Shown: one piece after another, positions 3,218 through 9,663 of the stretch
Position numbering within the stretch: position 1 is the stretch's first letter
How the letters are laid out: every line of letters starts with the position of its first letter
IMG/VR virus record: IMGVR_UViG_3300035698_003310
Coordinates: 1 to 20,089 of that record
DNA from: a virus
Direction: 5' to 3' (one strand)
DNA length: 20,089 bases
Translations under genes and position numbers: made by a program
The notes under the pieces: generated by a model
The model's database searches: none
Seen by the model: only the letters and a program-made list of their open reading frames with translations
What the model was told of the DNA's origin: nothing

Positions 3218-3799
3218 ATGGAACAACTAAATTGGACAACTGAAAAGCGTAAGGTAAATGACTTGATACCTTATGAACAAAATCCTCGTCAGATGACAGA
3301 GGTACAAGTTAAACATCTAACTGCCAGTCTAAAGAAGTTCGGACTTGTTGAAATACCGGCAATAGATATTGATAATAAGATCATAGCAGGACACCAAAGG
3401 CTAAAGATAATGCAAGTGTTAGATCGGGGTGAGGAATTAATCGATGTTAGAGTACCAAATAGAAAGCTAACAAAGGAAGAATTTGATGAGTATAATATCC
3501 GTAGTAATAAGAATACCGGTGAGTGGGATTGGGATATATTATCTGTATTTGATATTGATATGTTAAAGGATGTCGGTTTTGACGAAGATGAATTAATGGT
3601 TAATCTTGGTTTAAGTAGTGCTGATGATGTTGAGGTTGATGATGATAGGATGGTTGTGCTAGAGGTTTTACCGCCTGAGGCTCCGAATTTAAGAGAGAAA
3701 GCTGCAATACATTTTAAGGATATTGATAGTTATAGGAAAGTAAAAATTGCCATTGAAAGCGGGAAGATAACACAAGATAGTTTAATTGCAATGTTATGA
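3218..3799 (+). CDS. ParB/Srx-like N-terminal domain protein
   Basis: Residues 12-105 form a ParB/Sulfiredoxin-like domain: NDLIPYEQNPRQ near the start, IPAIDIDNKIIAGHQR with the conserved G-H-x-R-type nucleotide/phosphate loop, then a helical segment with NIRSNKNTGEWDWD. At 193 aa it lacks the HTH and dimer domains of plasmid partition ParB. Such stand-alone domains are common in phages beside DNA methyltransferases. Its C-terminal part (about 140-193) has a small alpha/beta segment, HFKDIDSYRKVKIAIESG. The gene overlaps the C5-methyltransferase by four bases (ATGA), so the two are very likely made together. Its role, DNA targeting or nuclease, is inferred only from this pairing. Confidence 0.8.
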   Translation: MEQLNWTTEKRKVNDLIPYEQNPRQMTEVQVKHLTASLKKFGLVEIPAIDIDNKIIAGHQRLKIMQVLDRGEELIDVRVPNRKLTKEEFDEYNIRSNKNTGEWDWDILSVFDIDMLKDVGFDEDELMVNLGLSSADDVEVDDDRMVVLEVLPPEAPNLREKAAIHFKDIDSYRKVKIAIESGKITQDSLIAML

Positions 3800-4692
3800 A
3801 ACTAAAATACTTTACATTGTTTACAGGTATTGGCGGTTTAGACATGGGTTTGGAAAAGCGGGGATATGATTGTGTTGGCTTTTCGGAGATTAAAGAAAGT
3901 TCAGTGAGGATCTATAACAGGCATTACCCAAAGCATAAGAATTTCGGTGATATAACTAAAATAGATATTAAGAAGATGCCAGACTTTGATATTTTAACTG
4001 GTGGGTTTCCTTGTCAATCATTTAACTTAGCTGGATTAAGAAAGGGTTTTGCGGATACAAAAGGTAAGAAAGGTCAGATGATATTTTATATATACAATAT
4101 ACTGATGGAGAAAAAACCGAAGTACGTAGTGTTAGAGAATGTAAAGGGGTTATTATTACATAATAATGGCAAGACATATCAGAGTGTTTTTAAGTTATTG
4201 ATGCATGCGGGGTATAATGTACGTGTAGTATTACTTAATTCGGCAAACTATGGATCTGCGCAAGGTAGAGAGAGAATTATATTTTTAGGTAGTAGGAAAG
4301 AATTTGATAAGTTTCAGCCGGAGAAAACGGATGATACTAAAAGGTTTAGAGATTTCAGAGATACTATAACCGAAAAGAAGATATTACCGGATGATCTAAG
4401 AGAGAAGTTTTTATCGGGAGATAGGAAAGGAGTGTTTATAGGAGGTTATGATAGGGTGAATACTTTAACAACTGGTATATCATCGAGTGGTAGGGCATCG
4501 GTAGTAATACAAGAGAGTGAAGATAAATTTAGATATTTAACTATATTAGAGGCAGAGAGATTGCAAGGGTTTCCTGATGATTGGACAAAGGGTGAGAGTA
4601 TGACGGACAGGTGGTTTGCAATAGGAAATGCAGTGAATTGTAAAGTGAGTGATTATATATTCAATAAGTATCTTGTTGATTTATGGTGGTAG
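3796..4692 (+). CDS. C5-cytosine DNA methyltransferase
   Basis: At 298 aa this is a complete Dcm-type enzyme that transfers a methyl group from S-adenosylmethionine to carbon 5 of cytosine. Visible motifs in order: motif I FTGIGGLDMG (9-18); motif IV GGFPCQSFN with catalytic Cys73; motif VI ENV (114-116); motif VIII QGRER (156-160); a short target-recognition region (about 175-245); motif IX TILEAERLQGFP (249-260); motif X AIGNAV (275-280). All key residues are present. The recognition site cannot be read from sequence. No cognate restriction enzyme is nearby, so it is an orphan phage methyltransferase, probably for evading host restriction or marking DNA. It is coupled to the ParB-like gene. 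Confidence 0.95.
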   Translation: MKLKYFTLFTGIGGLDMGLEKRGYDCVGFSEIKESSVRIYNRHYPKHKNFGDITKIDIKKMPDFDILTGGFPCQSFNLAGLRKGFADTKGKKGQMIFYIYNILMEKKPKYVVLENVKGLLLHNNGKTYQSVFKLLMHAGYNVRVVLLNSANYGSAQGRERIIFLGSRKEFDKFQPEKTDDTKRFRDFRDTITEKKILPDDLREKFLSGDRKGVFIGGYDRVNTLTTGISSSGRASVVIQESEDKFRYLTILEAERLQGFPDDWTKGESMTDRWFAIGNAVNCKVSDYIFNKYLVDLWW

Positions 4693-6333: not shown

Positions 6334-6537
6334 ATGACAAAAAGAAAAGGAAGTAAAACCAAAGATAATAACATGAGGTGGCTTAGTAAATATTGTCTAA
6401 AGTTTTCTGGCTATGGCCATAGAAAGCATAGGACTAGAAAGAGACCGTTGGTTGATCGTAATACTCGTAAAGATATATTAATTAAAATCGAAGATAAAGA
6501 AATTAAAAAACAAATCCATGCTGAGAAAAATAAATGA
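6334..6537 (+). CDS. Small very basic protein, 67 aa
   Basis: I do not recognise this protein. It is rich in Lys and Arg throughout (MTKRKGSKTKDNNMRWL, then GYGHRKHRTRKRP), suggesting nucleic-acid binding or a virion-associated role. It starts five bases after TerL and overlaps the next gene by 20 bases, so it belongs to the packaging operon. Confidence 0.6.
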   Translation: MTKRKGSKTKDNNMRWLSKYCLKFSGYGHRKHRTRKRPLVDRNTRKDILIKIEDKEIKKQIHAEKNK

Positions 6538-6709
6538 TATTAAACAGGTGATGCCTGAAACAAAAGAAGAAATCAAATGGTTTAGTTTGATTAGGACACT
6601 CGTCGAAGATACGGGTTATGGCAAGGTTGAATTAGAACTAACTGTTAAAGGTGGCAAGTTAGTTAGTATTAATAATATTAAACAACATAGTAGATTTAAT
6701 TTGAATTAG
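6518..6709 (+). CDS. Hypothetical small protein, 63 aa
   Basis: The N-terminal half is helical with a MPETKEEIKWF segment. The C-terminal half (YGKVELELTVKGGKLVSIN) looks like a beta-hairpin, with loose resemblance to the short DUF2292-type phage proteins. That likeness is by eye only. It overlaps the basic protein gene by 20 bases and ends one base before the HNH gene, so it is part of the same transcript. Confidence 0.6.
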   Translation: MLRKINDIKQVMPETKEEIKWFSLIRTLVEDTGYGKVELELTVKGGKLVSINNIKQHSRFNLN

Positions 6710-6710
6710 C

Positions 6711-7235
6711 ATGCATCCAATACCAACCGAAGTAAAAGAGCGAGTTAAGTTAGATCCATTTATGGGCGCTTGTATTTATGTAGTTATTGGTCGTGGCCAT
6801 GAATGTACTAAAAAGAATATACCACCAAGTCAGAAAGTGGTTGAATGGGAGCATGTGTTTAAGTATGCAGGTAAACAAATACAAGAACATTGGAATTTAA
6901 TACCAGTTTGCACTTATCATCATAGAGAGGAGGGCCTTGATAAAAGATTTAATGAATACATAGCTTTGAGGCGAGCGAATGTTAGTGATCTATTATTACG
7001 ATACCCTAGAACTAATTGGGTACAGGAATTCAAATATCTATCGGGCAAATATAAACATCTTAATATAAATATTAAACCACTAACCTATAAACTAATGTCA
7101 GAATTTAATAAGTTAAAACAACTAGGCAGGGATAAGGTTCGCAAGTTACGCAGTAAAGCTAATCAGAAAACAAGTGAGGCTAAAAGATTGAATGATGAGG
7201 CCGACCAACTAGAGACAGAGTTGGAAGAAAAATAG
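6711..7235 (+). CDS. HNH endonuclease with coiled-coil tail
   Basis: The first ~95 residues carry an HNH core: WEHVF (Glu47-His48), then NLIPVCTYHH with Asn62 and His70/His71. Cys21, Cys32, Cys67 and a histidine of the CTYHH stretch could bind a structural zinc. The end (about 130-174) is a charged heptad-like helix, KLRSKANQKTSEAKRLNDEA, probably a coiled coil. HNH proteins beside the terminase are known in HK97-like phages to work with TerL for site-specific genome cutting at cos. Its place between TerL and portal fits that role better than a homing enzyme, though homing is possible. Missing: direct evidence of a cos site. Confidence 0.75.
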   Translation: MHPIPTEVKERVKLDPFMGACIYVVIGRGHECTKKNIPPSQKVVEWEHVFKYAGKQIQEHWNLIPVCTYHHREEGLDKRFNEYIALRRANVSDLLLRYPRTNWVQEFKYLSGKYKHLNINIKPLTYKLMSEFNKLKQLGRDKVRKLRSKANQKTSEAKRLNDEADQLETELEEK

Positions 7236-7238
7236 AGT

Positions 7239-7406
7239 ATGCCAAAGCCAACTAAAGAACAAGTAGAAATAATTGATAGGGTAATAAAACTTGCCGATGA
7301 TTGTATTAGTAAGGAAAGTGTTTATGGTTGGGGAGAGTGTGATGTTATATTTCCTGAAAGTTTATTTGAAGAATTAGAGGAATTGAAAAATCGTGAGGAT
7401 TATTAG
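7239..7406 (+). CDS. Hypothetical small acidic protein, 55 aa
   Basis: An ATG four bases after the HNH stop opens a 55-codon ORF ending with TAG at 7404-7406. It reads MPKPTKEQVEIIDRVIKLA, has two cysteines in an aspartate/glycine-rich middle (CISKESVYGWGEC), and ends in an acidic helix FEELEELKNREDY. No family is recognised. Tight spacing, an ATG start and amphipathic-helix composition support it as a true gene, the last one before the long noncoding region. Confidence 0.6.
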   Translation: MPKPTKEQVEIIDRVIKLADDCISKESVYGWGECDVIFPESLFEELEELKNREDY

Positions 7407-7412
7407 TAGTCC

Positions 7413-7440
7413 TTGACGTGTTGATAAACTATTGTATACT
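7413..7440 (+). promoter_or_regulatory. Sigma70-like promoter P1
   Basis: TTGACG (7413-7418), a 16-base spacer and TATACT (7435-7440) match the -35 and -10 consensus at 5 of 6 bases each. Transcription would start near 7446-7448, just before the long hairpin at 7452. The promoter begins seven bases after the last ORF, so it opens the noncoding region. It shares the element TTGAC-K-TGTTGATA with P2. Confidence 0.7.
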
Positions 7441-7451
7441 AAAATTGCAAT

Positions 7452-7514
7452 TAATTAGGTGATAAAAAGTAGAGTGGTTATCGTATTAGTTACCATGGCC
7501 ACTCCGCCTAATTA
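7452..7514 (+). other. Long bulged hairpin in the noncoding region
   Basis: The arms are TAATTAGGTG (7452-7461) with CGCCTAATTA (7505-7514), and GAGTGGTTAT (7472-7481) with ATGGCCACTC (7495-7504). Then come a C-C mismatch, GTA/TAC (7483-7485 with 7491-7493) and a 5-base loop. One G-T pair lies in the outer stem and two in the inner. The 3' arms are continuous, whereas the 5' side has a 10-base A-rich bulge (7462-7471). No T-run follows, so it is not a standard terminator. It could be an RNA structure read from P1, or a DNA site such as a cos or pac element. Confidence 0.6.
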
Positions 7515-7526
7515 TATATATTATTC

Positions 7527-7555
7527 TTGACTTGTTGATACTTGTGGACTATAAT
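7527..7555 (+). promoter_or_regulatory. Sigma70-like promoter P2
   Basis: TTGACT (7527-7532), a 17-base spacer and a perfect TATAAT (7550-7555) make this the best promoter in the window. Transcription should begin near 7562. An intrinsic terminator follows about 90 bases later and the portal ATG lies at 7669, so P2 would make a short RNA and, by read-through, the head-gene transcript. Bases 7527-7540 repeat the P1 element with one change. Confidence 0.8.
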
Positions 7556-7561
7556 TTAGAT

Positions 7562-7654
7562 ATTAGTGAACCTTGCTTAACAGCATAGAATTAACGACAT
7601 TCGTTGTTTGAGGAACAAACGGCACAACTTTAACTAGTTTTTCGCCGTTTTTTT
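7562..7654 (+). ncRNA. Candidate small noncoding RNA between P2 and a terminator
   Basis: The unit of about 93 bases is bounded by P2 and the T-run of a terminator, and holds no ORF of meaningful length. Predicted small hairpins in order: TGCT/AGCA (7574-7585), AACGA-CAT-TCGTT (7593-7605), GTTTG-AGGAA-CAAAC (7606-7620), then the terminator stem. The third hairpin and the terminator share bases 7617-7620, so they cannot form together. I match it to no known RNA family. It may be an independent small RNA or an attenuating leader of the portal operon. Ends are estimated from the promoter and the T-run. Confidence 0.55.
7617..7654 (+). terminator. Intrinsic terminator upstream of portal gene
   Basis: AAACGGC (7617-7623) pairs with GCCGTTT (7644-7650) across a 20-base loop that can form an extra AACT/AGTT stem. 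The hairpin runs into seven consecutive T at 7648-7654. It is the only hairpin with a clear T-run in the window. It ends 14 bases before the portal start, so it ends the P2 RNA or attenuates head-gene expression. Confidence 0.7.
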
Positions 7655-7668
7655 ATTTATATAACACA

Positions 7669-9663
7669 ATGAAAAATACAATTTTAAGTACTATATCATT
7701 AGGATTTGATAAAGCAATAAGTTTTATGCAAAGAAAGAGTGCAACAGTTCTATTCGATTTGCAACAGTCAATAGGTATGAAAAATGGGCTTGTAGGTTCT
7801 TTTTTAACAGCATACGGAAGAAGTTTGTATACCAATAAAGCAGTAGGCCTTAGGGCTGAAAAGGTTGGAGAGGTTAAATTTAGATTATTTGACAAGAAAA
7901 AAGAGGAATTTATTGATAGTGAGATAGTAGATGTTTTGAATAATCCAAGTAAAACACTATCAGCGTTTGAATTTTGGTCATTGTTCCAAAAATATAAAGA
8001 TATTTACGGTGAGGCATATTTTAAGATAGAGAGTTTGAGTGGCATTTTTACTGGCCGTGAGATAGTTACTGAATTGGTATTGCTTAATCCATCACAAATG
8101 ACAACAGTTCTGAATAAAGATGGAGATGAGATTATTGGATATAAATATAGATTACCCAGTGGTGGCGAGATACCGTTAAAAGTAGAAGAAGTATTTAGGA
8201 ATTGGTATCAAAATCCTAAAAATCAGTTATTACCGGAAAGTCTATTAGATTCTGGCTTGAAGAATATATCTACAAGTGTTCAGTTAGATGAATACCAATC
8301 TAGTGTAATTGCTAATGGTGGTAGAGTGGGAGACGTTATTTCTTTCAAGACTGAACGCATGACATTGAAACAGTTACAAGAAATGCAGGACCATTATGAT
8401 GATAGAGTTTCAACTGCAAAGAAAGCCGGTAAGCCGATATTTTTAGGTGGCGATGTTTCATATCATAAGACAGCTTTAACACCGGAAGAATTATCATTTA
8501 TCAATAGTAAGAAAATGACACTTACTGATATTTGTATAATGACTAGAGTACCAAAACCATTACTAGCAAATATTGATGATGTTAAGTATGATAATGCAGA
8601 GGCATCACAAACTATATTTCTAAGTCAGACCATTAGACCTTTACTTGTTCAGCTTAATAGTAAGTTGGATATGCGATTGTTTCCTGAGAAGAATTTAGAG
8701 TTGAGGTTTATTGATCCAACACCAAAGAATAAAGAAGAAATTAGAGCTAATATTAAAGCAGCGGCAGAAGTCGGAGCTATATCAATAAACGAAAAGAGAG
8801 ACCTACTTGAACTAGATGCACTACCTGATGATGTAGGCAATATTATATTAATACCTTTCAATATGATTGATCTAAACAGATTGACTGATAAGCCGGAAGA
8901 AGTAAAGAAATCTATTGTTAAAAAGTCATATACACATCCACTGCAAGATCCTTTCAATCGTAAGATATATGGTGAGTACAAAGTATTGCGAGAGGATACT
9001 ATGATAGCTAAGTTTCAAAAAGAATTAAATATATATTTTGGTAATCAAGAAAAAAGATTACTTGATAGTATCGTAATAGATAAGTCAGTTATCACAAAAG
9101 ATATTATAGATGAAGCATTTAATGTTACATCTGAAATAAAATTAGCTGTTACTAGATTTTTACCACTTATCACAGAGTTCTATAAAGAGTCTGGTCAAGA
9201 GAGCTTAAACTTCTTAGGTATTGATCATGTATTTTCTACAACACCGGATGCAAATAGTTGGTTAGATAAAAAGGTTAATGTATTTGCAGATGAAATAAAT
9301 GAAACTACATTTAAGGAATTAAAGTCAACATTACAAGAGTCACTAGATGCTGGTGAGGGTAGACAGGAATTAGTTAAGAGGATTGAGGGAACATACGGCA
9401 ATATATCAAAGGCAAGAGCAAATACGATAGCTAGGACTGAGGTACAGGGTGTAACTCAAAATGGAACGTTCAATGCCTATAAGCAGGCAAATCTGCCAAT
9501 TAAGATATGGGTAACAGTAGGTGATGGCCATGTTAGACAAAGTCATGCTATACAAGATGGTGAAGAAATACCAATAGATCATTTCTTTGCTAATGGCTTG
9601 TTATATCCTGGTGATCCTAATGGAGTGGCCGAAGAAGTAATAAATTGTAGGTGCAAAATATAA
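7669..9663 (+). CDS. Portal protein fused to MuF-like head morphogenesis domain
   Basis: At 664 aa this is longer than a plain HK97-type portal (~400-450 aa). Residues 1 to ~405 look like the portal: NKAVGLRAEKVGEVKFRLF near the start, YKDIYGEAYFKIE, a RVGDVISFK stretch, and the mid-protein LPESLLDSGLKNIS and VPKPLLANIDDVKYDNAEAS. The last ~225 residues carry a phage Mu F / SPP1 gp7-like domain ending SKARANTIARTEVQG, WVTVGDGHVRQSHA, NGLLYPGDPNG and INCRCKI. The portal ring passes DNA into the head; MuF proteins are minor head proteins. In most phages these are two adjacent genes. No stop or frameshift separates them here, so the fusion looks real. Confidence 0.9.
   Translation: MKNTILSTISLGFDKAISFMQRKSATVLFDLQQSIGMKNGLVGSFLTAYGRSLYTNKAVGLRAEKVGEVKFRLFDKKKEEFIDSEIVDVLNNPSKTLSAFEFWSLFQKYKDIYGEAYFKIESLSGIFTGREIVTELVLLNPSQMTTVLNKDGDEIIGYKYRLPSGGEIPLKVEEVFRNWYQNPKNQLLPESLLDSGLKNISTSVQLDEYQSSVIANGGRVGDVISFKTERMTLKQLQEMQDHYDDRVSTAKKAGKPIFLGGDVSYHKTALTPEELSFINSKKMTLTDICIMTRVPKPLLANIDDVKYDNAEASQTIFLSQTIRPLLVQLNSKLDMRLFPEKNLELRFIDPTPKNKEEIRANIKAAAEVGAISINEKRDLLELDALPDDVGNIILIPFNMIDLNRLTDKPEEVKKSIVKKSYTHPLQDPFNRKIYGEYKVLREDTMIAKFQKELNIYFGNQEKRLLDSIVIDKSVITKDIIDEAFNVTSEIKLAVTRFLPLITEFYKESGQESLNFLGIDHVFSTTPDANSWLDKKVNVFADEINETTFKELKSTLQESLDAGEGRQELVKRIEGTYGNISKARANTIARTEVQGVTQNGTFNAYKQANLPIKIWVTVGDGHVRQSHAIQDGEEIPIDHFFANGLLYPGDPNGVAEEVINCRCKI

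Follow-up and report, generated by a model that had tools for sequence, protein, structure and literature searches.

The portal gene of the phage analysed here is preceded by what is apparently a conserved, undescribed RNA switch of late phage operons. In the window, i.e., the whole 20,089-nucleotide stretch of IMG/VR record IMGVR_UViG_3300035698_003310, positions 7527-7668 are read, with a probability of about 55%, as the conditional-terminator leader of the late head operon, in which a trans-acting factor, plausibly a DUF2292-like protein, stabilises a small hairpin (hereafter HP1) and sets the operon ON. The anatomy of this leader is well supported, and we infer the trans factor and the function in vivo. 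HP1, its covariation, the arm that it shares with a terminator, its position before late genes and its co-occurrence with a small ORF were all established by computation.

To our knowledge, detailed accounts of late-gene control exist for few phages, mostly those with culturable hosts. The same switch was found before head or packaging genes in many phages that are uncultured and in part unrelated, and thus seems to be an on/off control of late genes not described before; searches of the open-access literature found no description of the motif. If this reading is correct, the leader and its partner would form a new and portable control module, composed of a compact RNA switch and a protein of ~50 aa, that recurs in unrelated, uncultured phages ahead of operons for portal, terminase, protease or scaffold, and DUF2292 would gain a first testable role. 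The switch motif also provides a sequence signature by which the beginnings of late operons can be located in the genomes of uncultured viruses.

Anatomy of the leader

Besides TerL (Terminase_3), the window has structural genes for a portal-MuF fusion, a protease-like head protein and an HK97-type capsid, among others. The packaging module is preceded, at 107-1780 and 3218-4692, by a protein with glycosyltransferase-like matches and by a ParB-like gene adjoining an ORF that resembles a cytosine methyltransferase by eye. A DNA search of phage GenBank sequences with positions 6711-8669 returned zero matches. As noted in an earlier sequence-only reading, a single long gap interrupts this gene order: the 262 nt at 7407-7668, which follow the stop codon of ORF 7239-7406 and run up to the portal start codon at 7669, are the longest stretch without genes in the window. 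On its 5' side lies a cluster of small and HNH-like ORFs downstream of TerL, and on its 3' side the portal-MuF fusion gene (7669-9663), the first gene of the proposed controlled operon. Both promoters, the hairpins, the terminator, the portal gene and the DUF2292-like ORF are on the plus strand.

Two near-consensus sigma70-like promoters had been proposed in the gap, and both were recovered: promoter 1 (TTGACG-16-TATACT, 7413-7440) scores 10/12 and promoter 2 (TTGACT-17-TATAAT, 7527-7555) 11/12. Individually good, they are no proof of promoter activity, because the whole region shows only a mild excess of promoter-like matches (11 versus 6.2+/-2.4 in shuffles). Promoter 2, which has equivalent -10 elements in relatives, probably drives the switch leader, with a predicted transcription start at ~7562. 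From there to the end of a U run at 7654 the unit measures 93 nt, in agreement with the promoter-to-terminator unit of about this length, and the terminator before the portal gene, that the sequence-only reading had described.

Within this unit, folding and covariation identified the proposed antiterminator hairpin HP1, GTTGTTTG-AGGAA-CAAACGGC, at 7603-7623 (core 7606-7620), where GTTTG (7606-7610) pairs with CAAAC (7616-7620) around the loop AGGAA. The 3' arm of HP1, X' (AAACGGC, 7617-7623), is at the same time the 5' arm of an intrinsic terminator (7617-7654), in which it pairs with GCCGTTT (7644-7650). The U run of this terminator (7648-7654) stops 14 nt short of the portal ATG. The long loop hid the terminator from a pattern scan, and folding revealed it. 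The leader thus follows the scheme X-loop-X'-loop-X-UUUU, with a terminator that abuts the portal start, and in sequence and predicted folding it has the make-up of an attenuator leader: two mutually exclusive hairpins with one common arm, the second being an intrinsic terminator before the first gene. As the two folds overlap, they cannot be nested in one covariance model.

Folding predicts that the nascent RNA forms HP1 and that the full leader swaps HP1 for the terminator. In 22 of 27 loci, the probability of HP1 falls from at least 0.88 to about 0 once the 3' arm of the terminator is added. In one exception (L125), HP1 persists in the full fold, and we suspect that multiple T runs misplaced the cut point. 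The folding switch is weaker in L150, L165 and L155, the first two of which do not favour HP1 in silico.

In the proposed mechanism, transcription from promoter 2 would first yield the small hairpin HP1 with its pentaloop of ANNAA type. Once the distal arm emerges, the terminator would capture the 3' arm of HP1 and transcription would stop just before the portal gene, leaving an RNA of ~90 nt; by default, the longer terminator would win. A trans factor holding HP1 would block the terminator and allow read-through into the portal and capsid genes, so that binding would correspond to the ON state. The likeliest factor would be the small DUF2292-like protein whose gene lies upstream, next to that of the terminase.

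Conservation among related phages

Searches with TerL, portal and capsid gave at least 80 + 57 + 57 loci, and the cis leader is conserved across more than 30 related loci. Where the portal belongs to the same family, the sequence leading up to its ATG is mainly of two types. In the first, which has no element, TerL or another ORF reaches almost to the portal gene, and an extended -10 (e.g., TGTGGTATAAT) lies close before the ATG. The second consists of a -10 element, a leader usually of 14-50 nt, HP1, the terminator and the ATG. The closest relatives carry a promoter and a terminator at the portal ATG. In loci of the first type such as L086, L091, L099, L101, L126, L132 and L181, the extended -10 is located near the portal ATG, in several at a distance of ~7-15 nt, implying, from sequence, that their late mRNAs may be leaderless or near-leaderless.

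HP1 is characterised by at least three covarying base pairs and a pentaloop of the form ANNAA, the fourth position being A or U. Its core is an uninterrupted stem of 3-8 bp, with merely 3 bp in many loci. Variants include CGG-AAGAA-CCG, CGG-ACATA-CCG, CAG-AAGAA-CTG (L112), CAG-AGGAA-CTG (L144), TTTG-AGGAA-CAAA (L119 and the window), TTG-GAAAA-CAA (L155), TGG-AAAAA-CCA (L146) and TAG-AAGAA-CTA (L165), and, by eye, the X1-X'-X2 arrangement occurs with a different loop in L020, L029 and L190. X1 and X' change together (CGG/CCG, TTG/CAA, CAG/CTG, TGG/CCA, TAG/CTA), and X2 follows in most loci, such as L112 and L119.

The comparison of related phages that the sequence-only reading had called for thus revealed a covarying stem. 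Across 31 distinct sequences, aligned on anchors set by eye, 93/93 cells of the 3-bp core are paired (100% versus 87% in shuffles), one of the three pairs being invariant because the closing G-C belonged to the search rule. Core cells changed on both sides number 11, versus 1.4 in shuffles, and the covariation score of 0.414 (0.148 when shuffled) was reached in 0/500 shuffles, with all slid registers scoring far lower. The loop was part of the search rule, and its conservation is therefore partly by selection. On 2.9 Mb of strands, a mechanical descriptor of the triple matched 39 times, and in 15 cases a portal ATG follows within 60 nt; the random rate of the descriptor, ~26 per set, corresponds, by simple arithmetic, to ~0.03 expected in that 60-nt zone.

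About eight GC-richer loci (L084, L087, L088, L092, L096, L116, L123 and probably L082) have HP1 but no U run, and their sequences suggest a constant recognition hairpin combined with variable downstream platforms, which in these loci may be translational. The shared arm is short or absent in L144, L146, L150 and L165. The 14.1-kb contig of the element-bearing L155 is apparently the same as the L191 contig in a Candidatus Collierbacteria MAG, and the element-bearing L190 sits in a Cloacimonadota MAG, both hosts being assigned by binning only.

A linked small ORF and recurrence in unrelated phages

An ORF upstream of the element measures ~47-83 aa and follows the pattern helix, [YF]G-x-[IV]..., GK[IV]. 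In the window, this member of family A4 and proposed partner of the switch spans 6518-6709 (63 aa, or 52 aa from an internal ATG at 6551). Pfam DUF2292 (PF10055) is matched at E up to 1 by 7/32 family A4 members, with a best value of 7e-5, and the window member has no Pfam match; the member in L395, a phage of another lineage, reaches 36.2 bits (cut-off 22; 4.5e-9). The AlphaFold2 model of the small protein consists of a helix and a beta-hairpin (pLDDT 84), and a structure search with this model gave no significant fold match. In the window, an ORF at 6711-7235, which resembles an HNH-type endonuclease by eye and has no PHROG or Pfam match, and the small ORF 7239-7406 separate the DUF2292-like ORF from the switch; together, they look like an insertion into a DUF2292-like ORF/switch module.

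The small ORF is found upstream in all element-bearing family members with enough upstream sequence, and members without the element also lack the ORF, except L002, which has the ORF with no element and no intergenic gap, and L082, whose leader resembles a diverged element by eye. On a tree of 55 portals, each of the two traits undergoes six changes; 4-5 of the 5 independent pairs show both changing jointly, and 0 show them changing in opposite directions; the corresponding p values are 0.06-0.13, five independent pairs being too few for significance alone. A recurring hairpin with a linked small ORF points to a protein factor.

Gene-blind scans covered 2.9 million viral contigs. The strict pattern CGGANNAACCG...CGGTTTTTT...ATG was present in 15 contigs, 8 of which lead into the same portal family; elsewhere it precedes genes for other portals, either of a different HK97 kind (L352) or P22-like (L347, L353), for a large terminase (L356) or for a ChaB/head maturation protease (L358). 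Relaxing the pattern raised the count to 56 matches, about half of them coding or unrelated (the L362 group and L367/L374 were rejected on these grounds), and this added the portal-MuF of another lineage (L395), proteases (the L375 group, L394 and L377) and scaffold/capsid operons (L383, L396). With X1 scrambled and all else equal, 13 contigs were retrieved versus 56, with no recognisable portal or terminase ORF downstream (by eye) and no clear DUF2292-like ORF. Among the unrelated carriers, L347, L356, the L375 group, L394 and L395 also have the small ORF upstream (9.8-19 bits; L395 by Pfam). Weak look-alikes, with scores overlapping the best control scores, occur in L358, L360, L383 and L396, and L352 and L377 have the motif with no small ORF seen. 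Two further sets of recurring noncoding sequences, from various phages or satellites, fit CGGANNAACCG...CGGTTTTTTT, namely L371/L390/L399/L403, which resembles an Ash / P4-type immunity region by eye, and L361/L382/L384/L385; neither is the late-gene module described here.

These data raise the tentative idea, which we hold to be possible rather than probable, that DUF2292-like proteins are an unrecognised class of RNA-binding antiterminators, which would recognise the ANNAA-loop hairpin and license head genes in several unrelated phage lineages; their cellular relatives YezD and OscA, whose function is poorly known, may then act on RNA too. In the open-access literature searched, two papers only mention DUF2292. 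A tblastn search of cultured phages with three DUF2292-like ORFs found none, and hence no laboratory phage with the system. In 380 Patescibacteria genomes, the motif matched 5, not above a reversed-pattern control, so a cellular role was not seen, and the chromosomal DUF2292 genes of Patescibacteria have no hairpin. In one Patescibacteria genome (L415), the DUF2292 gene, without a hairpin, adjoins a terminase-like gene by eye; other Patescibacteria DUF2292 genes adjoin unrelated genes.

Known systems and alternative explanations

Rfam searches at gathering and permissive thresholds (up to E 5) matched no family to the element, in agreement with the sequence-only reading. Several classical leader types were considered and rejected: no common leader ORF for leader-peptide attenuation was seen by eye, a CsrA-type GGA site fails in L112, L165 and L088, and a T-box is at odds with the lack of an Rfam match and of a UGGN loop. 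The closest parallels in mechanism are protein-stabilised antiterminators. At RAT sites bound by BglG, SacY or LicT, as here, one arm is common to the terminator and to an antiterminator hairpin in the leader, and the regulator gene may adjoin its target (PMC9981650, PMC3369936). The RAT stem, however, carries two asymmetric internal loops (PMC3369936), whereas the stem of HP1 is short and uninterrupted and closes a pentaloop; moreover, no CAT/PRD protein was seen here, and the targets are late phage genes instead of sugar operons. ANTAR proteins (EutV, NasR, AmiR) likewise recognise the loop of a hairpin that overlaps a terminator arm, but their targets are built of two hairpins (P1 and P2) whose loops carry A1 and G4 (PMC3369936), as compared with a single conserved hairpin here, with an ANNAA loop and A or U at position 4. 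Since the defining RNA features of both are absent, the switch works like RAT and ANTAR systems without belonging to either.

Small hairpins in phage leaders, such as lambda nut/boxB and HK022 put, are also tied to antitermination, where they act processively on the polymerase with no competition for a terminator arm. In lambdoid phages, the default product of the pR'-tR' region is the short 6S RNA. Processive antitermination is the first alternative to be weighed here, and a possible if rather unlikely one: HP1 and the preceding leader would be a put/nut-like site, or the promoter a Q/AlpA-like loading site, at which a factor modifies RNA polymerase, the terminator being the first of several to be ignored. 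The order of late promoter, terminator and late genes is indeed that of lambdoid pR'-tR' (PMC6606751) and of the AlpA system (PMC9371919), the pentaloop hairpin is boxB-like in size, and GC-rich loci retain HP1 without overlap with a U-run terminator. Nevertheless, the arm shared by HP1 and the terminator is maintained by compensatory changes, which recruitment alone would not need, and the element occurs in one copy per phage record where matched. For the present element, neither a boxA consensus nor a second put stem could be established. Q recognises promoter DNA (the QBE, between -35 and -10) and relies on a sigma-dependent pause, in contrast to a conserved signal that is an RNA hairpin with a shared terminator arm. 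The spacer of the window promoter contains ACTTGT twice, 10 nt apart, and this was not seen in L144 or L004 by eye; nor was a conserved direct repeat in the promoter spacer seen by eye in the few loci inspected.

It is improbable that the hairpin is a passive terminator that ends upstream transcription or protects 3' ends, with the portal gene expressed by leakage. Intrinsic terminators are common between modules, and L169 and L274 carry plain ones at this place. The leader, however, has a conserved promoter upstream of the terminator and none recognised between the terminator and the ATG, and a passive role leaves aside the covariation of HP1, its gene-blind recurrence before late genes and the link with the small ORF. 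There is similarly little likelihood that the element is a translational or general riboregulator, in which bound HP1 alters access to the start codon and the terminator is one of several platforms. In L084, L087, L088, L092 and L123, HP1 is followed by a short hairpin that touches the ATG with no U run, as expected for such a device; the majority of loci, including the window, nonetheless have a U-run terminator fitting the thermodynamics of a switch.

The phi29 pRNA, likewise a structured phage RNA close to packaging genes, measures 174 nt and is part of the packaging motor. The sequence-only reading had envisaged either such a packaging RNA or a regulator of the late operon, and was right to flag the locus and half right on its nature. 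Regulation of the late operon is favoured by a conserved, structured noncoding leader that runs up to the first head gene's start codon. A free small RNA of ~93 nt acting in trans, e.g., in packaging, would account for the promoter-like and terminator-like ends and the stable hairpins, yet is very improbable given the lack of a match to the Rfam pRNA model (at gathering level or up to E 5), a position tied in cis to the first late gene, relatives that lose the element and keep a promoter at the portal ATG, and an ordinary TerL of the Terminase_3 type instead of a phi29-type ATPase. What that reading had missed is the arm shared by HP1 and the terminator, which proved decisive once relatives were compared.

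The 63-nt bulged hairpin described in the same reading is real and strong (7452-7514; -25.2 kcal/mol, z -5.5). Along with promoter 1, it is lineage-specific and without counterpart in the closest relative (L144), which speaks against a packaging RNA. At the equivalent place, L113, L114 and L139 have unrelated hairpins. The hairpins before the late promoter in the window and L113 are very stable and have a common shape without obvious sequence similarity: an outer stem, a bulge of 10-14 nt on the 5' side and an inner stem. The DnaA-box 9-mer TTATCCACA is over-represented in the last 300 nt upstream of the portal gene (6 in 20.9 kb versus 12 in 570 kb elsewhere); it occurs there in L108, L119, L121, L139, L155 and L274, often adjoining the late promoter, and a variant, TTATCAACA, is found in the window at ~7419-7427, inside promoter 1. 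A link of DnaA or replication to late transcription is possible.
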